Source of the DNA: Aquiluna sp. KACHI24
GTDB lineage: Bacteria; Actinomycetota; Actinomycetes; Actinomycetales; Microbacteriaceae
DNA length: 64,000 nt
Assembly (NCBI RefSeq): GCF_025997915.1
Contig: NZ_AP026677.1
Location: 124,001-188,000 of the forward strand
Direction of reading: 5' to 3'
The notes under the pieces are model-generated. The model saw only the letters and a program-made list of their open reading frames with translations, did no database searches and was not told the origin of the DNA. This document shows, piece by piece, positions 3,331 to 21,663 of the stretch (position 1 is the stretch's first letter; each line of letters opens with the position of its first letter). Both the position numbers and the translations under genes were made by a program.

Positions 3331-3347
3331 ATCACTTGGGGGAGTCG

Positions 3348-5042: not shown

Positions 5043-5076
5043 GAATTGCCACGACCTAAGTAATGCTTAACTCATC

Positions 5077-5220
5077 GTGCGCGGAGTAAAAAAAGAAAAC
5101 CTGCCGCAGAAGAACTGCGAGCGTTGCGGCAGACCCATGGTCTGGCGCAAGGCGTGGGAGAAAAACTGGGATCAGGTGAAGTACTGCTCCGAGAAATGCA
5201 AGAGAACTAAATCTCTTTAG
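5077..5220 (+). CDS. DUF2256 family small zinc-finger-like protein
   Basis: A 47-codon GTG-started frame in the gap after the paralogue cluster. It has the complete signature of the DUF2256 family as I know it: an N-terminal basic stretch, NLPQKNCERCGRP, a W-R-K-x-W-E-K-N-W-D core and KYCSEKCKR. The two Cys-x-x-Cys / Cys-x(3)-Cys pairs are likely zinc ligands. The stop at 5218-5220 lies inside the convergent galU gene, a tail-to-tail overlap of 14 bp. The family is small and widespread but, to my knowledge, of unknown function. There is no good ribosome-binding site; TAATGCT-like sequence shortly upstream could serve as a -10 for a leaderless transcript. Confidence 0.85.
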   Translation: MRGVKKENLPQKNCERCGRPMVWRKAWEKNWDQVKYCSEKCKRTKSL

Positions 5221-6106: not shown

Positions 6107-6112
6107 GGCTAA

Positions 6113-6118
6113 AGCCTA
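6113..6118 (-). promoter_or_regulatory. Leaderless -10 box of galU
   Basis: TAGGCT on the minus strand ends 6 nt before the galU ATG, so transcription would start at or next to the start codon. There is no Shine-Dalgarno sequence between them. Confidence 0.6.
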
Positions 6119-6185
6119 GACTCAACTCTCAGGAAATGCTGACTTCTCAGATTTACACTTTCGGGCAGTTGGATAGGAGTTACAA

Positions 6186-7520: not shown

Positions 7521-8290
7521 CGACCAAATACAAAGAGCAAGAATTTCAATGGGCCACCAAGCTCCTTGATGCGCCTTAGCCCAAAGCCAAACCTAACCAT
7601 TGCGGCCTTGGATCCGAAGACTCGATCAAACACGGATGCTCTAGCCATGCGATCTTTTTTGCTTCCCCAGCGCGACCCAGATGATTCAAACGGATGGGTC
7701 GCCAAAGTGATTGGCATAAACACTGCCTTGGCTCCGGCGCTTAGTAAGTCAACGATGAATATGTATTCATCGCCAAGGTAGTTCTTAGCCCCAGCACCGA
7801 AACGTTCATCAAACCAAACCCCAAGTTGCCGCACCGCTTCAACCCTGATCACCATCTCGTAGGTTGCGGCCCTTGCGGAGTTGTATTTGGTGAGCTCCTC
7901 ACGACCCTTTGGATACTGCTTGCGCAGTTTGCCAGCCGGGTCTACAGCTTGGCCGAGCAGCAGCGAATACTCCGGGTTTTCATCGAGGAAGCGAACTGCC
8001 TCTTCGAGGCCCGCTTCATTGAACTCGATGTCGTCATCGGAGAAGATCAGGTATTCACCCTTGCAGTGCCAAATCGCCTGATTGCGACTTTTGGCAACGC
8101 CTAGGTTGGTGAGCTCGTGGATCTCAAGGTCGGTTCTTGTGAAGAGCTCGGCAAGGCCTTCGCCGCGCCAAGCCATGTTCTCGGGATTTTGAATGATAAC
8201 CGTGACCCGCCAGTCCAAACGCTCCGGGGGTGGCTTGATGTTACCCACTCGATCTGCGAGGGTCGAATAGCCGAGGGTCAGCTTGATCAT
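7517..8290 (-). CDS. Family 2 glycosyltransferase
   Basis: A 257-residue GT-A fold enzyme. It shows the expected N-terminal strand (WRVTVIIQNPENM), the region NLGVAKSRNQAIWHCKGEYLIFSDDDIEF with the DDD metal/nucleotide-sugar motif, and the later GDEYIFIVDLLSAGAKAVFM segment. The ATG overlaps the TAA of the upstream membrane protein gene by one base (TAATG), so translation is coupled. It belongs to a minus-strand polysaccharide block. Acceptor and donor cannot be read from the sequence. Confidence 0.85.
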   Translation of the reverse strand: MIKLTLGYSTLADRVGNIKPPPERLDWRVTVIIQNPENMAWRGEGLAELFTRTDLEIHELTNLGVAKSRNQAIWHCKGEYLIFSDDDIEFNEAGLEEAVRFLDENPEYSLLLGQAVDPAGKLRKQYPKGREELTKYNSARAATYEMVIRVEAVRQLGVWFDERFGAGAKNYLGDEYIFIVDLLSAGAKAVFMPITLATHPFESSGSRWGSKKDRMARASVFDRVFGSKAAMVRFGFGLRRIKELGGPLKFLLFVFGR

Positions 8291-9060
8291 TAGAAGCTGT
8301 TCGCCTTAGCTCGGGCAAATCTCATCAAGGAGCTGCTAACCGATGAGAATGTGGTGTTTTGAAGTCTTAGACCTAGGAATAACACGATGGTGTTGGAGAG
8401 TGTGACCAGACCATCAAGCGAGAACCAAATCAATACCCCAAGCAGCACCACTACACCGAAGCTTGCCAGCAGCGTGCCGAACTCGGCCTGCTGAATTCGA
8501 GATCCCAGGCGCTCTGCTGGAGTGACCTCTTTCTTGGCGCGTTTTTTCTCAACAAAGCCGCGTTGCTTCTTTAGCTGACGCTTGAAAAGCACTCCCATTA
8601 CCTGAAGCACGATCAGCACCAGCAGCATGTTTAGCCCTGCAAACAGCGGGCTGAGTGCAAATAAGAAGAACGCAATTACAAATAGCTGAGTCAAAAAGCT
8701 AAGTACGTTGACTAGCTCAAGACCCATAGCCCACTCCCAAGACTCCTTGGTCTTGGACTTTTCTCTGGTGTCCGCTCCGAATGCCTTGTCAAAGAACTTC
8801 ACCCGATAGGTCTTCTGCAGATAGTTGGCAGTTCTTGTGGAGATAAAAAGCACTGCAAACACAACACCGGCAACGATGATCTCGGCCAGCGGCTTGTCAG
8901 CCCCATCGACAACCAGATCGGTAAAGAGCTTGGCAACCAGCAGTTCAATAACCGGAATCGAGGCTGCAATCAGAACTAGCAATACCAGCTGCGTGCGGTA
9001 CTTGCCCTTCGGGACTAGGAGTTTGGAAGAGCTAAATAGTTCTTGAAAGATTTTGCGCAA
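8290..9060 (-). CDS. ABC-exporter-like membrane domain protein without ATPase domain
   Basis: A 256-residue integral membrane protein with about five to six hydrophobic segments (LVLLVLIAASIPVIELLVA, IIVAGVVFAVLFIS, LFVIAFFLFALSPLFAGLNMLLVLIVL, FGTLLASFGVVVLLGVLIW). The layout recalls the transmembrane half of an ABC exporter, and there is no Walker motif anywhere in it or in its neighbours. It lies between glycosyltransferase genes, 3 bp after the fusion gene stop. It could be a degenerate ABC transporter half or a scaffold for the polysaccharide machinery. The ABC relationship is my reading of topology and is moderate in strength. Confidence 0.6.
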   Translation of the reverse strand: MRKIFQELFSSSKLLVPKGKYRTQLVLLVLIAASIPVIELLVAKLFTDLVVDGADKPLAEIIVAGVVFAVLFISTRTANYLQKTYRVKFFDKAFGADTREKSKTKESWEWAMGLELVNVLSFLTQLFVIAFFLFALSPLFAGLNMLLVLIVLQVMGVLFKRQLKKQRGFVEKKRAKKEVTPAERLGSRIQQAEFGTLLASFGVVVLLGVLIWFSLDGLVTLSNTIVLFLGLRLQNTTFSSVSSSLMRFARAKANSF

Positions 9061-9063
9061 TAG

Positions 9064-10821
9064 CTACTTCTTTCGAACCTTTGCAATGCCTGCCTTGATG
9101 TGCTCGATGACTTCGTCCTTCTTGGCCTCAGAGACCTTGATGTCTCGAATTAAGTTGTCGAGGTTTGCCTTGCGAAGATCTAGTGGCACAACCTGCGGGT
9201 TCATTACCTCAACTCCGGCACCCTGGGCGTAGTCACCGTACTTGATTCCTGAGCCGTGAACGTTCTCCTCATAACCTTCAAAGGTCACCAGTCCACATGG
9301 AATTCCATAGGACTGGCAGGTGATCATCACGTGCATGGCCGAGGTAATCACTGCGTCATACTGAGCCAGCTTGCCCACAAACTCTGCAATGTCAGTTGGG
9401 CGAGACATCAAAACCGAGAGCTCTTCGACATTCTCGGGTAGTTGCATCGGAGCTGAGGTGTGGGAGAAGTGACGAATAAATGCAATCTTGCCGTTGGTTG
9501 CTCCGCGAGTCACCGGGATGACGCGGCTCAGCGCGAGACCTGGGTCACCAAAGGCCTCGATGGCGGGACCGCCAGATTGCTTCAGCACTCTGGCGGTGAT
9601 TGGACCACGAACCGAGACATACTGCGCCTTGCGATTTAGTTCGATGTCATCGGTTGAGATACCGGTACCGATCACAACCGAGTTGGACTTGATGAAACGA
9701 CCAATCGAACCAAGGGAAATCAGGTGGGGCTTAGCGGCTGGCTTCACCGGTGACTGCAGCACAATCCGAGCATCGGTGTAGTGCGAGATCATCAGTGGGC
9801 TTAGCCAGTCCCCAAAGTTGCCCGGGAATGGCTTTGACCACCAGGCCAAACGAATCTTGTCCTCAGACTCCTTGGCGGAGTATGAGAGAAATGCCTCTGC
9901 AGCCTCAATGATTGATGCCTCACCGAAGCTCGCGATGTATTTGTTCTCGAACTCAGCTTTGGCCTTGATAAACAGGGCACCATCGCCCTTGATGCCACCG
10001 CCGAGCATTTCACCAACCATACGGCTGCGCTCAGGGTCAATGCTCTTGGCCTTGCCTGCAGTCAGCACACCGGTAATGCCGGCAGAGTCTGCAATTCGAC
10101 GCAGTGGCTTCTTGATTGAGTCCGGCAATGCCTTTTCAATTTTCTTCGCCTGCTTGAGAAGCTTCTTTCTTGGGCTGGACTTCTTGCCAGCACCGTGCTG
10201 CACAACCTTGTCCTTGAACTCTGCAACATTGCCCGAGGAACCGAATACGAAGAATGCCTCACGAGCACCAGGCTCAGCGAGCTTGCGGTCCTTGACGATG
10301 CAGGTTGAGGGGATGAGCTGGAAAGTTAGCTTCTTGGCATTTGCTCGCCAAGCCTCTTCCAAGAAATAGTCATCGGTTGCCTTGATATCAGCACGCTGCT
10401 CCAGGTCATAGGCATCTTCAACTAGCTTGCGGCCCTGCTCGGTGGCGTTTACGCCCCAGAAGCTTGGCTCCCAGAAGCGGGTGCGGTTGTGATAGCCGAT
10501 CTGAAGCGGGCTACCAAAGCTGCGCTGGAAACCAATTAGGTCAGCGGTGGTGTTAGAGATGAAATCGGGTAGGTGAGTGATGCGGCAGTCAACGTCAATC
10601 CAGAACACCATCTTGGTTGGGTGCTTGTGACAGATCTCGCGGATAAAGCCAATCTTGCGTCTGGTGACATCGGCCCAGTCTTCGCCGGGACGCTTTTGGA
10701 TTTCCAAAAGCTCGTGCGCGATGCCCAGCGAGTCAAGCTGCTCGCGAAGCTCTTTGGCGTGGCCGCCATAGTAGGCGTCAGGGGTGTAAAAACTGCAGAT
10801 GACTACGTCTCGGTTACTCAC
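9064..10821 (-). CDS. Fusion: nucleotide-sugar-transferase-like domain plus polysaccharide pyruvyl transferase domain
   Basis: A 585-residue two-domain protein. The N-terminal ~210 residues look like a GT-A-type transferase: start VVICSFYTP, the metal-binding-like WIDVDCR (Asp76-x-Asp78), and DYFLEEAW. A basic linker (KKSSPRKKLLKQAKKIEKA) follows. From about residue 323 the sequence is a polysaccharide pyruvyl transferase-like domain (WcaK/CsaB type): IRLAWWSKPFPGNFGDWLSP, SLGSIGRF, VIGTGIS, YVSVRGPITARVL, AFGDPGLAL, and the late VITSAMHVMITCQSYGIPCG. Known family members add ketal-pyruvate to surface glycans. The fusion would let one polypeptide add a sugar and pyruvylate it. The pyruvyl part is the firmer assignment. 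Confidence 0.8.
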   Translation of the reverse strand: MSNRDVVICSFYTPDAYYGGHAKELREQLDSLGIAHELLEIQKRPGEDWADVTRRKIGFIREICHKHPTKMVFWIDVDCRITHLPDFISNTTADLIGFQRSFGSPLQIGYHNRTRFWEPSFWGVNATEQGRKLVEDAYDLEQRADIKATDDYFLEEAWRANAKKLTFQLIPSTCIVKDRKLAEPGAREAFFVFGSSGNVAEFKDKVVQHGAGKKSSPRKKLLKQAKKIEKALPDSIKKPLRRIADSAGITGVLTAGKAKSIDPERSRMVGEMLGGGIKGDGALFIKAKAEFENKYIASFGEASIIEAAEAFLSYSAKESEDKIRLAWWSKPFPGNFGDWLSPLMISHYTDARIVLQSPVKPAAKPHLISLGSIGRFIKSNSVVIGTGISTDDIELNRKAQYVSVRGPITARVLKQSGGPAIEAFGDPGLALSRVIPVTRGATNGKIAFIRHFSHTSAPMQLPENVEELSVLMSRPTDIAEFVGKLAQYDAVITSAMHVMITCQSYGIPCGLVTFEGYEENVHGSGIKYGDYAQGAGVEVMNPQVVPLDLRKANLDNLIRDIKVSEAKKDEVIEHIKAGIAKVRKK

Positions 10822-10837
10822 GGGTAAAAACTACCAG

Positions 10838-11779
10838 CTACCCCCGCGATACCCCTCTAAATAAGCCCCACCAAAAACCCAAGCCCCAGGCAAAGTGCAT
10901 GGTTGGTAGCACCAGCATCAACCAGGCCTTCACGTTATTGCTTGGTCCACTGCGGGTAAACACATAGATTCCGATTGCGAGTAGGTATAGCCCAAGCGGG
11001 AATCCCCAAACCAGTGACAGCACCAGAATGGGTGGAATCCAGTAGCGAACCGAGGAGTCCGCGGGATTGTTTCTAGTTAGCGCACCACGCCACCTACCGG
11101 TTTTGAAAAACTGCCGTGCCAACTCTTCCCAACTCGATCTGGGGTAGTAGCCAACCTGCAGCCGTGGATCAAACCAAACTTGGTAATCGGCTTTGCGAAT
11201 TCGCTGGTTTAGCTCCCAGTCTTGACCTCTAACCCAAAACGGATCAAAACCACCGAGCTCATCTAAAACTGACTTTCTAAAGACACCTAGATAAACAGTC
11301 TCCTTGGGCCCAGCCTCGCCACCAACGTGAAATGCCCCACCGCCAAGCCCGATGCGGTCGTTATAGCCATAGGCAACCGCTGATTGAAAATCACTCTTGC
11401 CTTTGGCCACCATCATGCCGCCCACATTCGCAGCACCGGTTTGATTCAAAATCTCGACGGCAAGAGCGGCATAGCCATCGCTTAGGTCGGAGTGGGCATC
11501 TACTCTGAGCACAACCTCGTAACGAGCCTTGGCAATCGCAAGGTTTAGCGCAATCGGGGTAATGCCCTCAGGGTTTTCGACAATCTGCAGCTTTTCACCA
11601 AACTCGGTTGCCAACTGCATGGCAATCTCCATGGTCTGATCTTTGCTGGGGGCAATGGCCAGGATCAGTTCCATTTCGCCGGGCACCTGCTGGGCGAAGA
11701 CCGACTCAACAGCTGTCCTGAGGTATTTCTCTTCATCCCGAACGGGCATCACAAATGAGATGTTCTTGAGATCAGCCAT
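10838..11779 (-). CDS. Family 2 glycosyltransferase, ExoA-like
   Basis: About 313 residues when started at the ATG at 11779 (MADLKNISFVMPVRDEE). The longer frame from 11803 adds residues unlike the family and lies deeper inside the ugd gene. Motifs are the GT2 N-terminus VMPVRDEEKYLRTAVESVFAQ, DAHSDL for the metal-binding region, and FDPFWVRGQDWELNQRIRKA. C-terminal hydrophobic segments (ILVLSLVWGFPLGLYLLAIGIYV; LMLVLPTMHFAWGLGFWW) suggest membrane anchoring, as in succinoglycan ExoA-type enzymes. The start overlaps the ugd stop by 8 bp (ATGGCTGA). Confidence 0.88.
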   Translation of the reverse strand: MADLKNISFVMPVRDEEKYLRTAVESVFAQQVPGEMELILAIAPSKDQTMEIAMQLATEFGEKLQIVENPEGITPIALNLAIAKARYEVVLRVDAHSDLSDGYAALAVEILNQTGAANVGGMMVAKGKSDFQSAVAYGYNDRIGLGGGAFHVGGEAGPKETVYLGVFRKSVLDELGGFDPFWVRGQDWELNQRIRKADYQVWFDPRLQVGYYPRSSWEELARQFFKTGRWRGALTRNNPADSSVRYWIPPILVLSLVWGFPLGLYLLAIGIYVFTRSGPSNNVKAWLMLVLPTMHFAWGLGFWWGLFRGVSRG

Positions 11780-13088
11780 TTTGAATACTGCGACCCAGCG
11801 CAATCACTTTCCAGCCAGCTGATTGCCAGGCTGCAACATCAAGCACATTGCGGCCATCGATGACTGTCTTGTTCGCAACCACCGCGCCAAGAGCGTGAGG
11901 GTCAGCGTCTTTGTATTGCTTCCACTCGGTTCCCAAAATCACCAGGTCCGCCTCACGAACGGCCTCTACTAGATCAGCCTCACGACCAAGGGCCGGTTCC
12001 TTTTCGGCAAGTGCAGAGAGTGATACTGGGTCATGAACCGTCACCTCGGCACCTTCGCGACTTAGTCGCTGAGCAATCTCAAGTGCGGGGGAGTCGCGAA
12101 GGTCATCACTGTCTGGCTTGAACGAAATACCCAACATGGTTACGCGCTTGCCCCGAACATCCCCAAGCTCACTCTTGGCAAGCGCGACCACCTTGTCGCG
12201 TCTTCGGAGATTGATGGCATCAACGTCTTTTAGGAACTCGACTGCCGAGCCAACACCGAGCTCTTCAGCTCTTGCCATAAAGCCGCGGATGTCCTTGGGT
12301 AGGCAACCGCCACCAAAACCGATGCCGGTTCTAAGGAACTTGTTTCCAATACGTTCGTCATAACCAATTGCTTTGGCGAGCGAAACAGCATCAGCGCCTG
12401 ATACTTCTGCCACCTCAGCCATGGCATTTATGAAGCTGATCTTGGTTGCCAAGAATGCGTTGGCTGCCACCTTAACCAACTCAGCGGTCGGCACATCCAA
12501 AACCAAGAACGGCGTACCTAGGTTCAAGATCGGAGCGTAAGCGGCCTTGATCACTTCAACCGAGTGCTCGTTCCATGCGCCCACCACAATTCGGTCTGGT
12601 CGCAAGGAGTCTTCTAGCGCGGTTCCCTCGCGCAGAAACTCTGGGTTCCAAGCCAGGTTCACATCAAACCCAGTAATCTCAGTCATTACCTTCTGCAATT
12701 CGGTCGCGGTCCCAACCGGGACGGTTGATTTACCAGCAACAACAGCATCTGGTCTGAGGTGAGGAGCAAGCGCCTTGGCAGCGGCCATTACATAGGAGGT
12801 ATCAGCTGCATCGCTGCCAGAGCGCTGAGGTGTGCCAACACAGATGAAGTGGAGGTCGGCGCTCGCTGAATGGTGATTGTGCTCGGCCTGAAAGGTGATT
12901 TTGCCTGTTTTCAATACGCGAGACAGAGCCTCATCGAGACCAGGTTCGTGGAATGGAAGGACTCCCGCTTTTAGAGCCTCGAGCTTCTTGGGGTCAGGTT
13001 CAAGACCTACAACCTCATGACCAAGCTCCGCCATAGCGACTGCGTGTGTGGCCCCCAAATATCCAAGGCCGATGACCGATACCTTCAC
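11772..13088 (-). CDS. ugd: UDP-glucose 6-dehydrogenase
   Basis: Oxidises UDP-glucose to UDP-glucuronate with two NAD+. The 438 residues contain the N-terminal NAD motif VSVIGLGYLGATHAVAMAELG, the middle-domain signature WNPEFLREGTALED, and the catalytic cysteine Cys262 in FGGGCLPKDIRGF. The C-terminal domain has GISFKPDSDDLRDSPAL. It starts with GTG; a TAGACT box lies 8 nt upstream and there is no ribosome-binding site, consistent with leaderless expression. It heads the minus-strand polysaccharide block; its product is also the substrate of the UDP-xylose synthase at 30616. Confidence 0.96.
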   Translation of the reverse strand: MKVSVIGLGYLGATHAVAMAELGHEVVGLEPDPKKLEALKAGVLPFHEPGLDEALSRVLKTGKITFQAEHNHHSASADLHFICVGTPQRSGSDAADTSYVMAAAKALAPHLRPDAVVAGKSTVPVGTATELQKVMTEITGFDVNLAWNPEFLREGTALEDSLRPDRIVVGAWNEHSVEVIKAAYAPILNLGTPFLVLDVPTAELVKVAANAFLATKISFINAMAEVAEVSGADAVSLAKAIGYDERIGNKFLRTGIGFGGGCLPKDIRGFMARAEELGVGSAVEFLKDVDAINLRRRDKVVALAKSELGDVRGKRVTMLGISFKPDSDDLRDSPALEIAQRLSREGAEVTVHDPVSLSALAEKEPALGREADLVEAVREADLVILGTEWKQYKDADPHALGAVVANKTVIDGRNVLDVAAWQSAGWKVIALGRSIQNG

Positions 13089-13096
13089 AAGCAGGG

Positions 13097-13102
13097 AGTC
13101 TA
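13097..13102 (-). promoter_or_regulatory. Leaderless -10 box of ugd
   Basis: TAGACT on the minus strand, 8 nt before the GTG start, with no Shine-Dalgarno between. Confidence 0.55.
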
Positions 13103-13153
13103 CCTAGCAAACGGCAAATAACCCCTGACCGTAACGGGTATTGACTACGGGCG

Positions 13154-13159
13154 TATAGT
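13154..13159 (+). promoter_or_regulatory. -10 box of the tethered sigma-like gene
   Basis: TATAGT, 9 nt before the ATG at 13169. There is no ribosome-binding site, so the mRNA is probably leaderless or nearly so. A TTGACT at 13141-13146 is too close (7 bp) to act as its -35. Confidence 0.55.
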
Positions 13160-13168
13160 GATTTTTGT

Positions 13169-14611
13169 ATGGCAAACATTGAAGACCCAAAGACTTTTGG
13201 GGAAGACCCCTTAGAGCAGCTCCTAGATGAGGAGTCCGACGAGGAGTTTGGCCTACCTGAATTTCGAGAGCACTTTGCCGATTCACTGACTCCAGCCGTT
13301 CTAAAGGACTGGACTGCCAAAGACTTTGCGAGCATCTACGTTCGCTTTCGCCCACACCTAGAGCGTCATGCTCGTCGCTACCTCCAGAACCCATCACAGG
13401 TTGAGGAAGTAGTTCAAGACGCATTCCTATATTTAATGACCTCACTTCCAGAGCTCGACTCCGAGCTTGGAGTTTTGAAGTTCTTGAAGTGGAAGACCAG
13501 GCTGCTTGCTCTTGATGTAATTCGCTCCAACAGCCGCGCAACCATGGCTCCAATTGATGACCAGCCAGAGTTTGCATCGAGTGACCCAGAGATCAGCCAG
13601 GACCTTGAGCGTGCCGAAGACGCTGCGATTGTCTCCATGGCGCTGGCCAAGCTCCAACCTCGTCACCGCGAGGCGCTGATTGCGACCCTGTATGAGGAGA
13701 AGCCTCAAGAGGTCGTGGCTGCCCAGATGGGTCTCAGTGACAACGCATTCCGTCAACTTCTGTTCCGCGCCCGCGCCGCATTCAAGAAGGCGCTTATTGG
13801 CGAGGCAGAGACCGCAGGACTATCGATGTCTCAGATCCTCTCGATCGCTGCTCGCAAGGCAGCTGCCGAGAGCGGCAAGTATGTCTCTGCTGCAGGTGCT
13901 TTCTTGCTGGTTCTAGCAATCTCCATCGGTGTGCTGCCAAACCTCTCACCATCGGTGTCTGAGCAGGAGATCTCAGCTCCAGAGCCGACCATCACCTCTC
14001 CTTCAGAGCCGACTGAGGTTGAGGTTGCAGAAGAAACCCCAGCTTCACCATCAGATCTTGCCCCGGTTGCAGATTCAGTTATCGAAGCTGAGACAGTTGT
14101 AATGACCGCAACGGTCAACACCACTACCCAGGCAACACCAGAGCCCAAGGGCGACTTGCTTACCGAGCAGGAGCTAATGGTTGCAACTTTGAAGCCGATT
14201 CTGGGAGCGCGGACTCTCGAATCGCTCTCCTCAGAGACTGAGGGCCGAATTGTTTCCGCTTCCACGGGTGAGGTAAGCGTATTGAACTCAGCTGGCCTAA
14301 AGGCCAACGTGGTTTACGACCTAAACACCGAAAACGGCATCCAGTCAGCTTGGTTTGAATTCAAGGTCGGAGACGCAATGTTCTATGCACTTCCGAAAAC
14401 TTGGATCGCATCAAAAACTACTGATTCTCAAGGCCGCACGGTTTTGATGCTCGGTGCCACGGATCTTGTAGTCGGAAATGCCGATGGCAAGCTCGGTAAC
14501 GTGGTTATCGAGAACTCTGTTTTGGGCAATGGCAAGATCCGCCTCGAGATCGTTCTCGACGATGCAGCATCGCCAATTACTTCTTCTTTGACTATCAAGT
14601 CCAACTACTAA
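13169..14611 (+). CDS. Sigma-70/ECF-like protein with transmembrane segment and extracellular C-terminal domain
   Basis: A 480-residue protein with an unusual layout. An acidic N-terminal extension (about 1-45) precedes a sigma region 2-like segment (about 48-115: FRPHLERHARRYLQNPSQVEEVVQDAFLYLM) and a sigma region 4-like helix-turn-helix (about 155-205: LQPRHREALIATLYEEKPQEVVAAQMGLSDNAFRQLLFRARAAFKKAL). One transmembrane helix follows at 228-249 (AAGAFLLVLAISIGVL), then a Pro/Thr/Glu-rich linker (about 250-325) and a ~150-residue outer domain. The DNA-binding half would be cytoplasmic and the tail outside. It lies directly upstream of two large surface proteins, so it may control them or sense the envelope; that is inference. 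No separate anti-sigma gene is visible beside it. Confidence 0.85.
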   Translation: MANIEDPKTFGEDPLEQLLDEESDEEFGLPEFREHFADSLTPAVLKDWTAKDFASIYVRFRPHLERHARRYLQNPSQVEEVVQDAFLYLMTSLPELDSELGVLKFLKWKTRLLALDVIRSNSRATMAPIDDQPEFASSDPEISQDLERAEDAAIVSMALAKLQPRHREALIATLYEEKPQEVVAAQMGLSDNAFRQLLFRARAAFKKALIGEAETAGLSMSQILSIAARKAAAESGKYVSAAGAFLLVLAISIGVLPNLSPSVSEQEISAPEPTITSPSEPTEVEVAEETPASPSDLAPVADSVIEAETVVMTATVNTTTQATPEPKGDLLTEQELMVATLKPILGARTLESLSSETEGRIVSASTGEVSVLNSAGLKANVVYDLNTENGIQSAWFEFKVGDAMFYALPKTWIASKTTDSQGRTVLMLGATDLVVGNADGKLGNVVIENSVLGNGKIRLEIVLDDAASPITSSLTIKSNY

Positions 14612-14617
14612 ATAGCG

Positions 14618-14644
14618 GCCTTGGAAAAAGGCTCAAACTTTTTT
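14618..14644 (+). terminator. Probable rho-independent terminator after the sigma-like gene
   Basis: GCCTT (14618-14622) and AAGGC (14628-14632) form a short stem. A run of six T lies at 14639-14644, slightly distant from the stem. It separates the sigma-like gene from the surface protein gene. Confidence 0.55.
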
Positions 14645-14658
14645 GTATCCAAATCGTA

Positions 14659-14670
14659 ATGTCTGGACAT
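14659..14670. promoter_or_regulatory. Operator-like site A upstream of surface protein 1
   Basis: ATGTCTGGACAT is a near-perfect palindrome and continues into TATGTCC, which makes a second arrangement GGACA-TTA-TGTCC at 14665-14677. It matches sites at 17941 and 17990 at 11 or more of 12 positions (allowing orientation). Candidate binding site for the LuxR-type regulator encoded at 17230-17904. Confidence 0.55.
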
Positions 14671-14704
14671 TATGTCCGTTATCTTGGACTAGAGGGTGTG
14701 TGAG

Positions 14705-14784
14705 CTCCTGCTTGGTTGGTGCTTGCTCGCTCTCAAACCAATCGGCCCCAAGGCCGATTGGAAACCAAGAAAGAAAGAGAACGA
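14705..14784 (+). promoter_or_regulatory. Conserved structured 5' leader of surface protein 1
   Basis: Shares 17 identical bases (CTCCTGCTTGGTTGGTG), then TCGCTCT, then AAACCAAGAAAGAAAGA with the leader at 18090, all at the same offsets (0, 22 and 57). CTTGGTT (14711-14717) can pair with AACCAAG (14764-14770). The interior holds a perfect 10-bp hairpin (14738-14747 with 14752-14761, loop CCAA). The purine-rich AAGAAAGAAAGAGAA just before ATG is the only ribosome-binding candidate. Confidence 0.65.
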
Positions 14785-17166
14785 ATGTTCAAGAACACGA
14801 CTCGTAGGGGTCTTGCGATTGCTTCCGCTCTATCACTAGCGTTCGCAGGTCTGGTCTCCGCACCAGCATCAGCAAACGTAGCGTTTGAGCTAAAGCCATC
14901 TGCAGGTACCGGCTACAACACGCTCGTGACTGAGACCTTCACCCTAGAGACCGTTTTGGGTTCAGCTAACCCATCCGGCGGCGCTCAGCTGAAGTATGCA
15001 GTTTCGAAGGCGACCGGGTTCGACGTTGATGCTGTTTCCAGCACCAGCGCAACCGCTGCGCTTGTTGACAAGGAGATCCTCACCGGATCCACCTCTGAGG
15101 TAGTTCCAGCCGCTGGCGCAACCCAGACCTCCCGTAATTACTTCCGTCTAGCAATTGACGGCGCAACCACCGCTTCAGCATCTGTAACCGTTACCGTCAC
15201 CGCGTTCATCGACGTTGACAACGACGGTGTTGTAGATGCAGCAGAGCCACAGTCAGCCCAGACCATTTCTTTCAAGAAGTACTCTGACGTTGCATCTGTA
15301 GTTGCACTAACCCAGCCAATCCAGGGCGACACTTCTCTAAAGGGAACCGCCTCCTTGACTGACATCAACGCTGACCAGGTTCAGAGCTCCGTTACCTTCG
15401 TTGCATCCATCGGTGGCACCGCTACCGGTTCCGCAACATTGGCTAGCGGCGTTTACTCAACCGCTGTATCAGCGCTTGCTGCTAACGCAACTGTTTCTGC
15501 AGTTGTAAAGGTTGGAACCACTCAGATTGGCGCAGCTTCTTCGACCCTAACCGTGACCGCAGCTTCAGCTGTTGTTGTTACTGCTTCTGCAGTAACCAGC
15601 GACAACGCTAAGGGCACCTTGGTTCGCAAGAACTCCGCATTCGCAGTGACCGGTAAGGTCCTAAACGGCAACACTTCAACCGCTTCTGGCGTTGCAGGTG
15701 TCGCAGTTACCGCACTTGTCACCACCAGCGCGACCCTGGGATCAAGCACCACCATCACCGTGAACGGTGTGACCTACACTGACAGCGCGAAGCTACCAAC
15801 CGCTCTTGCTCTAACTACTGACGCAAGCGGAAACGTAACCCTGAACGTGACCAGCGCGGGCCTCGCTGCAGATGCAACCATCGGCTTCCGCTTCACTTCA
15901 CAGAACGTAGTTTCTGACCTGTTCACCACCACTCAGAAGGACGCACAGTACACCGCGACCGCTGCTGGCACTGGTTACCTAACCGTTGCACCTTCGGGCG
16001 CATTCTCGGTTGACTACACCGTTGCTGACCAGTGGGGCGTTGCAGCTCCTGCAGGCCACCGTGTTGCAGTTGCCTACAACGGCACCACCAAGTACGTGAA
16101 CCTATCCGCAGGCGCAGCAAAGGTTGACTTCACTGCAACCAGCTCTGCAGCGACCCTGAACGTAGAGAACATCGCACTTGAGTCACAGAACACCAGCACC
16201 CTTAACTGGTCAACTGTCTCAACCGCAGTCACCGCATCTGTAGTTGTTGTAAAGGCAACCTCAGTAGCAGCTTCGTTCACCACTGCTCCAACTCACTCAA
16301 CCGCTGTTGATGTTGCTCGCGCAACCACCAGCAACACCGCTGGTTTCACCAACAAGGTTGAGATCACTGGAAAGGTAAACCACGCAGGTCAGTCTGTAAC
16401 CGTAACCTCGACCGGTGCAAAGTTCTCCAACGCTTCTCAGGGCGTGGCTGCTGTAGCTAACACCTACACCACCACCGCTGATGGCAACGGAAACTTCACC
16501 ATCTCGGCATACGTGCACGTTGCTGGCACCGCGACCTTCAACTATGTTGCTGGCACCGCGACTGCTTCAACCACCATCAAGGTGAACACCCCTAACGGCA
16601 CCAACGGCTCAGCGCTAGACGTAACCTCTAACGCTGCAGGTAACACCATCGAGCCAGGCAAGACCATCGTTGCAAAGATCTCTCTAAAGGATGAGTTCGG
16701 CAACGTAATCGCTGCTGACGATGCTGCTACCGAGTCCTTCGGTGTAACCGTGACTGGCCTTGGCTTCGTTGGCGCACTACCAACCAAGCTAAACAGCTCC
16801 GGTGAGGCAACCGTAACCGTTCTGCTAGGTTCCGCTGATGAGGGCAACGTCGTCATCACCGCTACCTACTCGAAGGACGGCACCACCGCTAACGCCATCA
16901 CCAAGGTGCTAACCATCGCTGTTGCGAAGGCTGCTGCTCCTGAGGTAAACGCAGTTATCGGTACCTACAACGGCCGCTGGGCAGTTCGCGTTGAGAACGC
17001 AAAGGGCTCAGTAGTTTCCGTCAAGGTTGGCGGCAACTGGTTCAAGTACACCTCTCTAAACGAGAACTACCTATTCAGCCGCAAGTCGGTTAAGGGTCGT
17101 ACCCTCGCAGTTGCTGTTTATGTAAACGGCCAGCTAGAGAACGTTGCAACCATCGTTGTGAAGTAG
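14785..17166 (+). CDS. Large secreted surface-layer-like protein 1
   Basis: 793 residues from the ATG at 14785; the longer frame from 14716 runs through the conserved leader and is rejected. Signal peptide MFKNTTRRGLAIASALSLAF to APASA (residues 1-30). The mature protein is very rich in Ala, Thr, Val and Ser, with alternating beta-strand-like stretches, Ig-like by appearance, and almost no Cys. The last ~75 residues (EVNAVIGTYNGRWAVRVENA, GGNWFKYTSLNENYLFSRKS, VAVYVNGQLENVATI) are nearly identical to those of the protein at 18169 and related to the subtilase tail. Codon choice (CTA Leu, GTT, AAG) resembles that of the ribosomal genes, so high expression is likely. Probable S-layer or major wall protein; no enzymatic motif seen. 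Confidence 0.85.
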   Translation: MFKNTTRRGLAIASALSLAFAGLVSAPASANVAFELKPSAGTGYNTLVTETFTLETVLGSANPSGGAQLKYAVSKATGFDVDAVSSTSATAALVDKEILTGSTSEVVPAAGATQTSRNYFRLAIDGATTASASVTVTVTAFIDVDNDGVVDAAEPQSAQTISFKKYSDVASVVALTQPIQGDTSLKGTASLTDINADQVQSSVTFVASIGGTATGSATLASGVYSTAVSALAANATVSAVVKVGTTQIGAASSTLTVTAASAVVVTASAVTSDNAKGTLVRKNSAFAVTGKVLNGNTSTASGVAGVAVTALVTTSATLGSSTTITVNGVTYTDSAKLPTALALTTDASGNVTLNVTSAGLAADATIGFRFTSQNVVSDLFTTTQKDAQYTATAAGTGYLTVAPSGAFSVDYTVADQWGVAAPAGHRVAVAYNGTTKYVNLSAGAAKVDFTATSSAATLNVENIALESQNTSTLNWSTVSTAVTASVVVVKATSVAASFTTAPTHSTAVDVARATTSNTAGFTNKVEITGKVNHAGQSVTVTSTGAKFSNASQGVAAVANTYTTTADGNGNFTISAYVHVAGTATFNYVAGTATASTTIKVNTPNGTNGSALDVTSNAAGNTIEPGKTIVAKISLKDEFGNVIAADDAATESFGVTVTGLGFVGALPTKLNSSGEATVTVLLGSADEGNVVITATYSKDGTTANAITKVLTIAVAKAAAPEVNAVIGTYNGRWAVRVENAKGSVVSVKVGGNWFKYTSLNENYLFSRKSVKGRTLAVAVYVNGQLENVATIVVK

Positions 17167-17188
17167 TTTCAACACTCTCCAAAAAACC

Positions 17189-17218
17189 GATAGCCCCCCT
17201 GGAAACAGGGGGGCTATC
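17189..17218. terminator. Bidirectional terminator
   Basis: A 13-bp perfect stem (GATAGCCCCCCTG / CAGGGGGGCTATC) with a GAAA loop. Six A lie on the left (T on the minus strand) and a T-rich stretch on the right. It separates the surface protein gene from the convergent LuxR-type gene and suits both. Confidence 0.85.
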
Positions 17219-17229
17219 CATTTAACTGT

Positions 17230-17904
17230 TTAGCTTGCCAGTGACTGTTTTGGTATCAACCCGAGGGCCTTACCCTTTTTGGAAGCCTCAGTTCTACTGT
17301 TGACACCTAGCGCTCGATATATCCGGACTGTCTCTTGGCGAATGGTTGACTCCGAAAGCAACATAACTCTGGCAATTTCTGCATTGGTTTGGCCCAGCGC
17401 CATGTAACTGAGCACCTGTCGCTGACGATCGGTCAACTCCTCAGGGTTTCCCTCTGTTCGAACAGCACCTTGCTTGATGTTGAGTCCGTTGGTGTCCAGG
17501 TAGAACGCACCGAGCTGAGCCAAGACGTTCTTCGCTGAGTCCTCTAGCTTCGCCACCTTCTTTCCTGAAACGACTACTAGGCCACCAACTGGTGCCATCG
17601 ACTTATAAAAAGGGAACACCGTAATGAACGCGTTCTCCCAAGCGAAGGATGCAACTTCCTTAGAACCCAGTGCCTTGGAGATCGGGTTGTCATCCCAGAG
17701 AGATAGCCCTTCAGGAATCGGATATGAGTTTCCGTAAGAGGCAATTACCCGCAGGCTGCCTTTCTGATCTATTGCAACCAATTGAGAACCCGATGCCCCC
17801 GCACCCAAAAAATCTCCATGGACAACGTTCCTGCATAATTCGTAGCTGTCTGATGATGAGGTAATCACCCCGGTCGCGTTCTCTAAGAACTCGAGTGCAA
17901 GCAT
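17230..17904 (-). CDS. LuxR-family transcriptional regulator with GAF-like sensor domain
   Basis: 224 residues from the ATG at 17904, which has AGGGGG (17911-17916) at good spacing. The longer frame from 17937 has no ribosome-binding site and would abut an operator-like site. The N-terminal ~150 residues look like a small sensory fold (GAF-like: SGSQLVAIDQKGSLRVIASYG, FPFYKSMAPVGGLVVVSG). The C-terminus is a LuxR helix-turn-helix (ELTDRQRQVLSYMALGQTNAEIARVMLLSESTIRQ). It sits between the two surface protein genes and is divergent from the second. Operator-like repeats lie in front of it and of both surface genes, so it probably regulates all three. Confidence 0.88.
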   Translation of the reverse strand: MLALEFLENATGVITSSSDSYELCRNVVHGDFLGAGASGSQLVAIDQKGSLRVIASYGNSYPIPEGLSLWDDNPISKALGSKEVASFAWENAFITVFPFYKSMAPVGGLVVVSGKKVAKLEDSAKNVLAQLGAFYLDTNGLNIKQGAVRTEGNPEELTDRQRQVLSYMALGQTNAEIARVMLLSESTIRQETVRIYRALGVNSRTEASKKGKALGLIPKQSLAS

Positions 17905-17940
17905 TCGAAACCCCCTAATTAGTTCCTGTACATACATTCA

Positions 17941-17952
17941 AAGTCCAGACAT
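17941..17952. promoter_or_regulatory. Operator-like site B, upstream of the LuxR-type gene
   Basis: AAGTCCAGACAT differs from site C (17990-18001) at one position and from the reverse complement of site A at one position. It lies 37 bp before the preferred LuxR start, so it could mediate autoregulation. Confidence 0.55.
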
Positions 17953-17989
17953 TTGAAAATGCGAGAGCGTTTCGTCCCCCATCTTGGTC

Positions 17990-18001
17990 AAGTCCGGACA
18001 T
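17990..18001. promoter_or_regulatory. Operator-like site C in the divergent LuxR/surface protein 2 region
   Basis: AAGTCCGGACAT is followed by GACATGTC (18008-18015), an extra palindromic half. TAGACT at 18020-18025 is a possible -10 for surface protein 2, which would put this site just upstream of, or overlapping, the -35 region. Confidence 0.55.
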
Positions 18002-18089
18002 TACTCAGACATGTCCAAATAGACTCCCCTACCCCTTAGTAACAGGGAGGGACCGCCTCTGGTTACCTAAGCCTGTAAGAGTGGGATAT

Positions 18090-18168
18090 CTCCTGCTTGG
18101 TTGGTGGTAGTTCGCTCTTACAGCCATTTCCCCCATGGGTTTTGGTAAACCAAGAAAGAAAGAAAACT
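18090..18168 (+). promoter_or_regulatory. Conserved structured 5' leader of surface protein 2
   Basis: Same architecture and spacing as the leader at 14705. CTTGGTT (18096-18102) pairs with AACCAAG (18148-18154). The interior hairpin is kept in position (CCA/TGG and CCC/GGG, loop CCAT) but with three U-U mismatches in place of the paired bases of copy 1. AAGAAAGAAAGAAAA precedes the ATG. Confidence 0.65.
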
Positions 18169-20712
18169 ATGCAAAAGAACTCAAACCGCAGAGGTTTGGC
18201 TCTTGGCGCGATCTTCGCCCTGGTTGCATCACTGTTCGTCTCCGCTCCGGCGCAGGCAGCAACTGATGGTGCAAACATTGGTGTTTACCCGGTCGCCGAG
18301 AACGGAACCACATCATCTGCATTTGTAGGTACTTTGGTGGATGACTTCCCGATCTACGTTCAGGCGAAGCCTGGAAATACGTCGCTTGCGAACACCACTG
18401 TCATCTTCAAGGTCGAGAAGACTGCCGGAACCAACATGGATGTCGTGGTCAGCGCTAGCGCGACCGCTACTGACATGTCCGCAATCACATCCACCTCACC
18501 TTCAGCCCCGACTGCTACTCAGGGTTACATGCAGGCTGGAAGCACCTCCATCACCGTTGCGGCAGTAGTAAACGCTTCCGGTGTCGCTCACCTTAACTTC
18601 AAGGCCAGCTCCGCATCAGGACTGGCATCTTGGAGTGCAGTGACTCTGAAGGTCACCGCCTTCCAGGACATCCAAGGTGGCGTCTCCAATGACACCATCA
18701 ACTCCGACGAGTGGTTTACCACCCAGAGCGTGACCTTGCTTCACCCAACTGCACTCACCGCTGTTCTCAGTAACTCTGCGCTGGGCGTGGGCACCAATGG
18801 GGTAACTGTAAGTGCCACTGTCACTGGAGTGAACCTTGCAAACATTAGTGGTCAGTTCAGGCTGGCTTACTCAACCTCTGCCTCTACTTCGTTCGTTGGC
18901 AACAACGTCACCGCAGCTCAGGCATTCGCTAGAGGTGGAATTGTTTCACAATCTGCCGGTCTAACCACTATTGCTGGAAACGAAAAGTACGAGTTCTCCC
19001 TTCGTTACCACTCTGCCGCTCTAAGCGCGGTGACTGATGGTTCTCGTGTCGGAAGCCTTGTGACTGTAACTGCGTCTCGTGCAACCGCGACCGCGCTTGT
19101 GGTTCTGGTAGAGGCTGGTGACGATGCAGTTTCTGCAAGCGGCACCACTACTTCTGGAGTGACCTACAACGTCCGTCCAAACAAGACATACAAGGTGACC
19201 GTGACTGCCATGAGCAACTCAGCAACTGTGTCTGGCGAGGCTTTGAAGGTTGCAATCACTGGTGAAAGCTTGAGTGTTGATGCTGGCAAGACCATCTCTA
19301 TCGATGGTGGCGCCGCTACTACCTCATACCCAACCGCAATGTCGCTTACCACTGGAACAGATGGCAAGGCTAGCTTCACTCTAGCCTCCGCAGGTATCAC
19401 TGACGCTCACGCTAACTTCGTGATCACGGTAACTAGCGAGGTATCAAACCTTACCAAGGCTGCAACTTTGAACCCAGACCTTCCTGGTTTTGTGGTAGTG
19501 AACGAGTATGACCTGTACTCAACCACTCCTGGAACCGCAGTGAAGCTGAACTTCGATGTTGAGGACCAGTGGGGTGTTGCCTCTGACCGCACGAATCAGC
19601 GAATCAAGCTGACCGCAGGTGGCGACTCTGGATTCCAGGGAAACCCGACCGTGTCATATGCAACTGTAACTGCAGGTAAGGCATCATTTGACTTCACTGC
19701 AAACCCAGTTACCAAGACTGGTTCGGCAACCATCGTGCCCGTTGTCCAGACCCTAAACCCAGACACCAACACTTGGGTGGACGGAACCACGGGAACAACC
19801 ATCACCATTAAGGTCACTACGATTGCGAATGCCTTCACTGGCTCAGCTTTAGCTACCGCTTCTGCGAGCATTTCTTATGCAGCTGCGAGCGGTAAGTACA
19901 GCTGGTCCGCAACTTCCATTGCAATCAAGGCTGTAAATCCTGGTTCAGATGTAGTGGTTTCCGCTCCGGGCTTGTTCATTCAGGACCTGGCCGATTCCAA
20001 GACATACTCCGCTACAGCGACTCTAAGAACTGACTCCTCTGGAGATCTTTCTTTGAAGTTCGCAAGCACCAAGGCCGGAACCCACACCGTTAGCTTCACT
20101 GTGGGAACCGTTACCACCACCTCACAGATCGTAGTAACTGCCGCACAGGTGCAGAGCGCAAAGAACATCACAATTGCATCTGCCACCATGTTGCCTGGTC
20201 AGACAAACGTAATCTCTGGTACTCTCACCGACGCTAATGGCAACCCAGTTGCTACAACAGCGGACAAGAAGGTATCGGTGGAGTGGACTGGTAAGGGCCT
20301 CCCATTCAACGTCGGTTCAATTGCTACTGACGAAGATGGAAAGTTCTCCTTCCAGGTGCTAGTGCTTGCTGGCGAGACCGGAACCGGTACCGTAAAGGCA
20401 ACTTTCAAGCCAACCGCCGTTGCCGCTGACGACATCACCGTTACGAAGACCATTGCGATCGATGCCCCAGCAGTTGCTCCAGCTCCTGAGGTCAACGCAG
20501 TGATCGGCACCTTCAACGGCCGCTGGGCAGTTCGCGTTGAGAACGCGAAGGGCGCAGTTGTTGCAGTCAAGGTTGGTGGCAACTGGTACAAGTACACCTC
20601 TCTAAACGAGAACTACCTATTCAGCCGCAAGTCAGCTGTAGGTCGCTCCGTTGCGGTAGCTGTTTATGTAAACGGCACTCTAGAGAACGTGGCGACTATC
20701 ACCATCAAGTAG
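18169..20712 (+). CDS. Large secreted surface-layer-like protein 2
   Basis: 847 residues from the ATG at 18169. Signal peptide MQKNSNRRGLALGAIFALVA to APAQA (residues 1-30) keeps the NRRGLA motif of paralogue 1. The mature chain is again Thr/Ser/Ala/Val-rich and built of beta-like repeats. Segments such as FDVEDQWGVAS and DANGNPVATTADKKVSVEW align with VDYTVADQWGVAA and LKDEFGNVIAADDAATESF of protein 1. The C-terminal domain (EVNAVIGTFNGRWAVRVENA, LNENYLFSRKSAVGRS) is almost the same as in protein 1. The body is much more diverged than the signal and tail, so those ends are under stronger constraint. Likely a second S-layer-like or alternative coat protein. Confidence 0.85.
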   Translation: MQKNSNRRGLALGAIFALVASLFVSAPAQAATDGANIGVYPVAENGTTSSAFVGTLVDDFPIYVQAKPGNTSLANTTVIFKVEKTAGTNMDVVVSASATATDMSAITSTSPSAPTATQGYMQAGSTSITVAAVVNASGVAHLNFKASSASGLASWSAVTLKVTAFQDIQGGVSNDTINSDEWFTTQSVTLLHPTALTAVLSNSALGVGTNGVTVSATVTGVNLANISGQFRLAYSTSASTSFVGNNVTAAQAFARGGIVSQSAGLTTIAGNEKYEFSLRYHSAALSAVTDGSRVGSLVTVTASRATATALVVLVEAGDDAVSASGTTTSGVTYNVRPNKTYKVTVTAMSNSATVSGEALKVAITGESLSVDAGKTISIDGGAATTSYPTAMSLTTGTDGKASFTLASAGITDAHANFVITVTSEVSNLTKAATLNPDLPGFVVVNEYDLYSTTPGTAVKLNFDVEDQWGVASDRTNQRIKLTAGGDSGFQGNPTVSYATVTAGKASFDFTANPVTKTGSATIVPVVQTLNPDTNTWVDGTTGTTITIKVTTIANAFTGSALATASASISYAAASGKYSWSATSIAIKAVNPGSDVVVSAPGLFIQDLADSKTYSATATLRTDSSGDLSLKFASTKAGTHTVSFTVGTVTTTSQIVVTAAQVQSAKNITIASATMLPGQTNVISGTLTDANGNPVATTADKKVSVEWTGKGLPFNVGSIATDEDGKFSFQVLVLAGETGTGTVKATFKPTAVAADDITVTKTIAIDAPAVAPAPEVNAVIGTFNGRWAVRVENAKGAVVAVKVGGNWYKYTSLNENYLFSRKSAVGRSVAVAVYVNGTLENVATITIK

Positions 20713-20733
20713 TTTCAAAAACTAACTAACCGG

Positions 20734-20761
20734 ATCGGGTGGACCTTAGGGTCCACCCGAT
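20734..20761 (+). terminator. Hairpin terminator after surface protein 2
   Basis: A 12-bp perfect stem ATCGGGTGGACC / GGTCCACCCGAT with a TTAG loop; the following TTCCCATTTC is only weakly T-rich. Confidence 0.65.
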
Positions 20762-20784
20762 TCCCATTTCATCGGCTGAGTCTG

Positions 20785-20790
20785 TAGTCT
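20785..20790 (+). promoter_or_regulatory. Leaderless -10 box of the EamA transporter gene
   Basis: TAGTCT ends 6 nt before the GTG start at 20797 and no ribosome-binding site is present, so the transcript is probably leaderless. Confidence 0.55.
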
Positions 20791-20796
20791 TGCCAG

Positions 20797-21663
20797 GTGT
20801 CTAAAAAGGGTCTGATTCTTTTCCTTCTAGCTGGGCTCTTTTGGGGTCTTCCTTATTTCTTTATTGTTTGGGCACTTGAGTCTTTTTCGACATCAACAAT
20901 CGTCTTTGCCCGAACCTTACTTGGTGCGGTCGTCCTGATCCCATATGCGATCAAGGTAGGTGGCATCAGACCTGCTCTCCAAGCATGGCCATATGTCGTG
21001 CTTTTTGCAGTTTTGGAAATGGTTGTGCCGTGGTTCCTGATAACAGAGGCGGGCAAACACATACCTTCGGGACTATCTGGACTTCTTGTATCGACCGTCC
21101 CATTCTTTGCTGTCGCGATTATGGCTCTTGTGTTCAAAGACAGAACTGCCCTCAAGCCGGTTCCGTTGTTGGGCATGTTGATCGGATTCACCGGAGTCGT
21201 CGCTCTCGTGGGCATCGACTCTCTATTGGGGCACATCGATCCGATTTGGGTGAGTGCGGTCGTATTGGCCGCACTTGGTTATGCGATTGCCCCAATCATG
21301 GCGAATGTAAAGATGAGAGAGGTTCCCACATCGGGCGTCATTGGATTGAGCATGGCTCTTGTGGCACTAGTGTATTCACCGTCCGCTCTTTCCGAGCTAC
21401 CGCGCGAGCTGGTTGCTGAACCAACAGCTCATGCCTGGATCGCTCTAGTAGTTTTGGGTCTTGTTTGCTCAGCTCTCGCGTTTGTCATTTTCTTCGAGCT
21501 GCTCAAGGAAGTTGGCCCAGTAAAGGCAAGCTTGATCACCTATGTGAACACAGCCGTCGCGCTGCTCCTTGGGACACTTTTCCTGAGCGAGCCTGTCACG
21601 CCAGGCTTGTTGCTGGGAATCCCGTTGATTTCGATAGGTCTATATCTCAGTGCGAAGAAGTGA
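20797..21663 (+). CDS. EamA/DMT-family transporter
   Basis: 288 residues with about ten hydrophobic helices in two similar halves, as in the drug/metabolite transporter superfamily. The N-terminal half has GLFWGLPYFFIVWALESFSTSTIVFARTLLG; the second half has VVLAALGYAIAPIMANVKM and LVCSALAFVIFFELLKEVGPVKASLITYVNTAVALLLGTLFLSEPVT, a typical C-terminal EamA signature. Starts with GTG. Probably exports a small metabolite; the substrate cannot be read. The next gene follows after 12 bp, so they may be co-transcribed. Confidence 0.9.
   Translation: MSKKGLILFLLAGLFWGLPYFFIVWALESFSTSTIVFARTLLGAVVLIPYAIKVGGIRPALQAWPYVVLFAVLEMVVPWFLITEAGKHIPSGLSGLLVSTVPFFAVAIMALVFKDRTALKPVPLLGMLIGFTGVVALVGIDSLLGHIDPIWVSAVVLAALGYAIAPIMANVKMREVPTSGVIGLSMALVALVYSPSALSELPRELVAEPTAHAWIALVVLGLVCSALAFVIFFELLKEVGPVKASLITYVNTAVALLLGTLFLSEPVTPGLLLGIPLISIGLYLSAKK

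Follow-up and report, generated by a model that had tools for sequence, protein, structure and literature searches.

Positions 13169-20712 of a 64,000-nucleotide stretch of Aquiluna sp. KACHI24 DNA (the window, part of the 1.46-Mb single-contig genome G000) hold four genes in series: SIGMA, COAT1, LUXR (on the opposite strand), and COAT2. They encode, in turn, a predicted membrane-tethered extracytoplasmic function (ECF) sigma factor, a large secreted protein, a LuxR-type regulator, and a paralogue of the secreted protein (Table 1). We propose, with a probability of about 0.5, that a self-activating coat sigma factor drives a default coat and that the LuxR-type protein is a toggle that swaps in the alternative. 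The proposal is built on sequence: the gene order and its recurrence, the motifs and their positions, a hairpin in the leader RNA, and an asymmetry in codon usage.

In the mechanism that we infer, a C-terminal helix would tether SIGMA to the membrane, a long disordered stalk would carry its beta ectodomain, and SIGMA would be released or activated, most simply through cleavage at the membrane. Freed SIGMA would take RNA polymerase to CGTAAY-N16-CGTWW elements before its own gene, giving positive feedback, and before COAT1. LUXR would be a GAF-LuxR dimer that answers a cytoplasmic cue and binds TGTCCGGACA-type sites. Bound in the spacer of the COAT1 promoter, it would block the SIGMA-polymerase; bound at the site ahead of COAT2, where a second half-site follows at two helical turns, it would activate that gene, and it would probably regulate its own divergent gene. 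Both coat mRNAs would carry a common structured leader, and a common C-terminal domain (CTD) would dock both proteins to the same cell site. The outcome would be a default coat and its LUXR-dependent replacement.

The promoter element and the sigma factor

ECF sigma promoters typically contain GTAAC and CGTWA boxes 16-17 nt apart. In the 64-kb window, CGTAAY-N16-CGTWW had only two matches, at 13130 before SIGMA and at 14655 before COAT1 (0.10 expected), and the sole match to CCGTAAY-N16-CGTWW in the whole genome was the one before SIGMA. This putative promoter element common to SIGMA and COAT1 is new here, having been missed in the original prediction, which had described the locus as a self-contained envelope system for two coats; together with the recurrence of the gene order, it upholds that description as far as a coat-regulating module is concerned. 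The strict element preceded SIGMA in 24 of the 32 loci with this gene, and variants did so in six (CATAAC with N17 in L136-L138, N17 in L144, AGTTA in L145, CGTGT in L150), while two lacked it. Thus, an ECF-like element is conserved before SIGMA in 30 of the 32, as judged from sequence and with variants included. In these same loci, the element stood before 12 of 23 leader-bearing genes vs none of 407 other genes. In the SIGMA promoters, the two boxes carried 1.7 and 1.3 bits per position vs 0.5 for the spacer (22 distinct sequences, selected by regular expression). Across 28 leader-bearing promoters, a SIGMA-type element lay 52-56 nt before the leader core in 18, which we call class A; the remaining ten were not of this class, and six of these had GTAAC-N17-GGTTAC at -53.

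The element could instead be read as an inverted repeat, GTAAC...GTTAC, bound by a dimeric regulator, with the coats using a housekeeping -10 in the TAAGAGTG/TAGAGGGT block before the leader and SIGMA serving other genes. The element is indeed nearly palindromic (GTAAC/GTTAC) in the coat promoters, most Aquiluna copies have a TA-rich block 8-16 nt upstream of the leader, and some genomes that lack a leader-bearing coat still have SIGMA. We nevertheless consider this explanation unlikely: the right half before SIGMA is the non-palindromic CGTATA in most copies, the spacing of the strict form is 16, and the first coat of L140 has not retained the TAAGAGTG block.

The SIGMA protein had been described as sigma-like, with one transmembrane helix and an outer domain, and the analysis agreed on each part. 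Pfam matched sigma-70 region 2 (E 5.2e-10) and region 4 (E 9.8e-9), TIGR02937 matched with E 5.1e-22, and the best Foldseek matches of the AlphaFold2 model were ECF sigma factors. All 24 members of the SIGMA family had both regions (Pfam), in the ECF layout without region 3. C-terminal to sigma4 lies a single hydrophobic helix (19-residue window at aa 238-256, mean hydropathy 2.27; AlphaFold2 helix at 220-252). This is followed by a Pro/Thr/Glu-rich stretch of 76 aa, within a predicted disordered stretch of approximately 80 residues, and by the beta ectodomain, for which the predicted local distance difference test score (pLDDT) by block was mostly 76-93, with one block at 54.

Cysteine was absent from the SIGMA of the window and from the sigma4-transmembrane linker of the listed family members, and none of the 24 members had a zinc-finger Pfam match. 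Pfam gave no carbohydrate-binding domain in SIGMA, the ectodomain not having been searched as a separate model. A phmmer search of the ectodomain against PDB sequences returned only matches of E 0.12 or worse. The Foldseek and VIA-align lists were obtained with the whole SIGMA model, and because the sigma domains filled them, they hardly probed the ectodomain fold. A relationship between the ectodomain and the coats was rejected, hhalign having found nothing (probability 0.1).

LUXR and its candidate operators

As originally predicted, a LuxR-type regulator lies between the coat genes. Its GerE helix-turn-helix domain was matched with E 6.2e-13 (Pfam) and was found in all ten LUXR members. Like NarL/GerE-type LuxR regulators, LUXR has this domain at its C-terminus and is associated with palindromic sites; unlike them, it has an N-terminal domain that is weakly GAF-like (GAF_2 in three of ten members, best E 3.5e-4) and is neither a receiver nor an autoinducer domain. 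No receiver domain was detected in LUXR, Pfam matched no autoinducer-binding domain in the ten members, and LUXR had no match in phage records.

A repeated palindrome had been reported before both coat genes and the regulator. Indeed, WGTCYGGACAWY had exactly two matches on both strands of the window, at 14660 and 17991, and a weaker copy was found at the LUXR start. With 0.16 matches expected and only 2 of 100 shuffles reaching two, a chance palindrome was rejected. The COAT2 palindrome lies approximately 48 bp upstream of the COAT2 promoter element and that of COAT1 within the promoter, positions that suggest repression of COAT1 and activation of COAT2 by LUXR. The contrast would fit the idea, already put forward in the original prediction, of a switch between two alternative coats.

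The two positions recurred in other genomes. In 21 class-A promoters (the 18 above and three from L136-L138), the core GTCCGGAC was near-perfect in 11 (0-1 mismatch), always within the spacer, and absent from ten (at least three mismatches). Whole-genome searches gave a strong LUXR match for 7 of the 11 class-A promoters with the palindrome (G000, G001, G003, G009, L138, L140 and L145) vs 1 of the 10 without it, namely G002, the others having weak matches or none and the L148 and L150 genomes holding distant LuxR relatives. The association had a Fisher p of 0.024, or 0.008 with a LUXR remnant included, values that are uncorrected for kinship and for which several genomes were incomplete. LUXR was the divergent upstream neighbour of 10 of 10 leader genes outside class A and of 0 of 18 within it. 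Nine of the ten promoters outside class A had a TGTCCGGACA-like palindrome at -100 to -102 (0-2 mismatches), and the same nine had a half-site (0-1 mismatch) exactly 21 bp beyond it.

These data also bear on whether a factor other than LUXR binds the palindromes, the position of LUXR being incidental. Such a binder would account for G010 and the L136 genome, where an operator is kept without LUXR. It appears quite improbable, given that the class-A spacer palindrome tracks the presence of LUXR (7/11 vs 1/10) and that LUXR and its coat flank the class-B operator in 9 of 10 cases. Separately, repeated TAGTAATGTCTGGTCCTTTAC-like units that resemble half-sites were observed upstream of LUXR in G002 (L021).

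The coat proteins and their leader RNA

The description of COAT1 and COAT2 as large secreted paralogues with a common leader RNA and CTD held up. Both N-termini are signal-peptide-like, and the proteins are 31% identical overall (241/767) and 85% identical across the last 78 residues (66/78). AlphaFold2 predicted COAT1 to be a string of Ig-like beta domains (mean pLDDT 81.5), and members of the COAT2 type matched Pfam Big_1. Foldseek searches with the coat returned many unrelated tandem Ig-like proteins; as the TM-scores were 0.24 or less, the assignment is limited to fold class. A full-length search of the genome revealed no further coat paralogue (two matches), and Pfam detected no SLH domain or other known wall anchor among 17 coat proteins. 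Exchange of the coats by DNA inversion was considered and rejected, COAT1 and COAT2 being direct repeats.

Codon adaptation was 0.739 for COAT1, 0.54 for COAT2, 0.52 for SIGMA and 0.34 for LUXR, with 22 window genes for ribosomal proteins and elongation factors as the reference (range 0.60-0.85). COAT1 thus falls within the range of the reference genes, a comparison of codon usage and not of protein level. The class-A coat exceeded the class-B coat in each of the six genomes that have both. The value for COAT2, well above that of most ordinary window genes, would also fit a balance of the two coats, in which both are made together, with LUXR tuning their ratio or total through the same action on both promoters. 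The leader and CTD common to both coats also favor such balancing. The operators are placed differently, in the spacer at COAT1 and far upstream at COAT2, and LUXR is a divergent neighbour of class-B coats only, which makes balancing a somewhat doubtful alternative to the default coat and toggle that we propose.

The CTD followed a different course from the rest of the coats. In coats paired within a genome, the last 75 residues were 69-92% identical vs 29-37% for the bodies (8/8 pairs). Between genomes, the corresponding values were 63-91% and 28-86% (nine pairs). Because CTD identity is high within genomes while the bodies diverge, the alignments indicate concerted evolution of the CTD inside each genome, which would be expected of coats that both dock at one species-specific site. 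A related CTD (28% over 71 aa, E 7e-5) was observed in a secreted S8-type (subtilase-like) protease encoded at 6186-7520 (+), in a block for surface polysaccharides that runs from galU to UDP-glucose dehydrogenase and is conserved in many genus-mates. This protease could process the coats or have an anchor in common with them.

The leaders of COAT1 and COAT2 are 74% identical over 90 nt. The predicted leader, of approximately 65 nt, runs from CUCCUGCUUGGUUGG to AAACCAAG; it is closed by helix P1 and includes a small arm and a hairpin, P3, of 9-10 bp. The sequence of P3 varies nearly freely while its pairing is kept: 258 of 270 positions in 28 leaders were paired, vs 79% in shuffled inserts analyzed with the same finder and 48% with swapped partners. 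At least nine pairs were formed in 24 of 28 leaders vs 158 of 2800 shuffled ones. RNAalifold detected two-sided changes in 7 of the 17 pairs of the fold, and z-scores for inner folding ranged from -0.6 to -3.7. In a few leaders P3 fits poorly, including that of COAT2 (6/8 with the ungapped finder), for which folding yielded an interrupted hairpin. The invariance of P1 in this set is partly by construction, as its letters were used to collect the leaders.

No leader match was found in Rfam by cmscan of 13000-21000 at E up to 1; the single match, rnk_pseudo at 17181-17269, was below the gathering score and not at a leader. The exact leader pattern occurred in 8 of 398 genomes of the family, all of its own genus, and the leader model R1, under stricter filters, in 1 of 297 genomes of the order. 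Within the genus, the leader was found at 18 places in 13 of 22 genomes, the same 18 that built the model, and in 10 of 13 good genomes. Viral contigs gave no leader matches. Variant leaders occur in L136-L150, so these searches understate the spread of the leader. The leader directly follows the promoter and ends 10-20 nt ahead of the start codon; since it falls between them and the upstream TTG codons that were also listed, the ATG codons at 14785 and 18169 are most likely the starts of COAT1 and COAT2. Its placement before highly adapted genes suggests a role in mRNA stabilization or translation control; most likely, it serves very abundant messages in one of these ways.

Recurrence in other genomes and relation to known systems

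The survey comprised the 32 SIGMA loci and 22 genomes of the genus, 13 of them good. The full order, SIGMA-coat-LUXR-coat, was found in G000, G001 and G009 of the genus and in L140 and L145, which are outside the 22-genome sample and have other flanks. The order therefore recurs in relatives, but is not universal. SIGMA, found in 13 of 13 good genomes of the genus, occurs in 11 of 259 genomes and 3 of 85 genera of the family. SIGMA and a coat alone were present in G010, G011, G012, G002, L139, L141, L146, L147, L148, L150, and G006, where stops interrupt many genes of the region (L093/L149), among them SIGMA and the coat, through either decay or sequencing error. LUXR-coat pairs lay away from SIGMA in G003, G005, G007 and G014. 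In G003 (L020), positions 4956-16019 hold a tandem coat-LUXR-coat-LUXR-coat array far from SIGMA, an arrangement suggesting that LUXR and its coat spread together as a cassette. The gene after SIGMA in L136-L138 (labelled Rhodoluna limnophila or Actinomycetota) encodes another type of secreted protein, 310-324 aa long, yet has kept the element, the operator core and a leader; judged by these motifs, the regulatory parts outlive the target gene. That SIGMA and the LUXR-coat pair each occur without the other might indicate that ordinary surface genes and regulators have come together by chance. Because five genomes with differing flanks have the four-gene order, and the promoter, operator and leader are shared, we regard this as very improbable.

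Several observations weigh against a SIGMA-driven default coat with a LUXR toggle. In the 22 genus genomes, CCGTAAY-N16-CGTWW had 14 matches (11 at SIGMA, one at a coat, two elsewhere) vs 18 for the reversed pattern, and CGTAAY-N16-CGYTAY had ten (eight at leader-bearing coats, two elsewhere) vs 14; because the controls reach 18 and 14, the real totals are not in excess and the signal of the patterns is their location, not their number. The two loci lacking the SIGMA promoter element, L133 and L134, have SIGMA in other surroundings, and the good genomes G013, G018 and G019 keep SIGMA and its promoter with no leader copy. Control of COAT2 by SIGMA is doubtful, as its N17/GGTTAC element differs and the second coat of L140 and L145 has no clear ECF element. 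With respect to LUXR, the direction of its proposed action is read from site position alone. G010 (98% complete) has an exact COAT1 operator and no LUXR match at E 1e-10, L136 and L137 have an operator core (degenerate in L137) without a LUXR match (completeness not given), and the LUXR of G017 is a remnant with a stop. Conversely, G002 has LUXR and a class-A coat without a palindrome of this form, and the second LUXR-coat pair of G003 lacks the operator at -101. Finally, codon adaptation pooled over 31 leader genes did not differ between classes A and B (p 0.27).

S-layer switching systems feature an abundant secreted surface protein and alternative paralogues with a common anchoring end. The present locus is similar in having alternative coat paralogues with a common C-terminal end, here known from genes alone. 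It differs in that no SLH or known anchor was found and in that the proposed switch is transcriptional rather than a DNA inversion. The ECF52, ECF48 and ECF53 sigma factors of Actinobacteria, such as SCO4117 of Streptomyces coelicolor, likewise continue into a membrane segment and a long, partly Pro-rich extension outside the cell; they are predicted to be released by proteolysis, and positive autoregulation has been proposed (PMC8999054; PMC5826349). By comparison, SIGMA adjoins its putative coat target, has no detected carbohydrate-binding module and has no zinc-finger (ZAS) anti-sigma domain; for the last reason we did not assign it to these groups. The nearest functional precedent is sigma-BldN/RsbN of Streptomyces, in which an ECF sigma factor turns on surface-sheath proteins, the chaplins and rodlins (PMC4255298). 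BldN has a separate anti-sigma factor, RsbN, whereas SIGMA would combine sensor and sigma factor in one protein, alongside large Ig-like coats and a LuxR toggle.

Streamlined aquatic genomes usually contain few sigma factors, 2-5 by one report (PMC6106888). A sigma factor apparently wired to a coat and kept in such a genome would imply that coat identity matters greatly. If correct, the proposal would provide a one-protein route from the cell exterior to a promoter, without a separate anti-sigma factor, and a transcriptional coat toggle and leader RNA to study. More tentatively, the locus may form a coat-identity circuit in which the SIGMA ectodomain, on its flexible stalk, monitors the state of the coat and feeds back on production of SIGMA and of the default coat, the GAF-LuxR toggle exchanges the entire coat, for instance when phages or grazers press on the cells, and the leaders represent a new class of structured RNA dedicated to coat mRNAs. 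A search of the open-access literature, subscription papers being outside its scope, yielded nothing joining Aquiluna with an S-layer or surface protein, or Rhodoluna with an S-layer, and the accessible part of PMC12422013 contained nothing on this locus.

Table 1. Features of the SIGMA-COAT1-LUXR-COAT2 locus (window positions)
Feature	Positions	Strand	Description and basis
SIGMA promoter	13129-13157	+	CCGTAAC-N16-CGTATA; putative autoregulated ECF-type promoter
SIGMA	13169-14611	+	Predicted membrane-tethered ECF sigma factor (Pfam, hydropathy, AlphaFold2, Foldseek to ECF sigmas)
SIGMA segments			sigma2; sigma4; transmembrane ~aa 238-256; disordered stalk ~254-332; beta ectodomain ~333-480 (AlphaFold2)
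COAT1 promoter element	14655-14682	+	CGTAAT-N16-CGTTAT; class A
COAT1 palindrome	14660-14677	+	TGTCTGGACA and half-site TGTCC inside the -35/-10 spacer; putative LUXR operator, repressor position
COAT1 leader RNA	14705-14769	+	P1 14711-14717/14763-14769; P3 hairpin 14738-14747/14752-14761
COAT1	14785-17166	+	793 aa, signal peptide, Ig-like beta domains (AlphaFold2, Foldseek, codon adaptation)
COAT1 CTD	16930-17163	+	85% identity to COAT2 CTD
Inverted repeat	17184-17223		Terminator-like, between convergent COAT1 and LUXR
LUXR	17230-17937	-	GAF-like and LuxR/GerE helix-turn-helix regulator
LUXR palindrome	17940-17953		AAAGTCCAGACATT, weak, just upstream of the LUXR start codon; putative autoregulatory site
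COAT2 palindrome	17991-18016	+	AGTCCGGACA and half-site TGTCC (18012-18016) 21 bp on, upstream of COAT2; putative LUXR operator, activator position
COAT2 promoter-like element	18039-18066	+	GTAAC-N17-GGTTAC; class B; 6/28 leader-bearing promoters in this register
COAT2 leader RNA	18090-18154	+	
COAT2	18169-20712	+	847 aa; CTD ~20476-20709

Elsewhere in the window, positions 2-5042 (+) hold a run of three large genes whose C-terminal parts are related; the first has relatives that adjoin a distant LuxR-type gene in G001 (L028).

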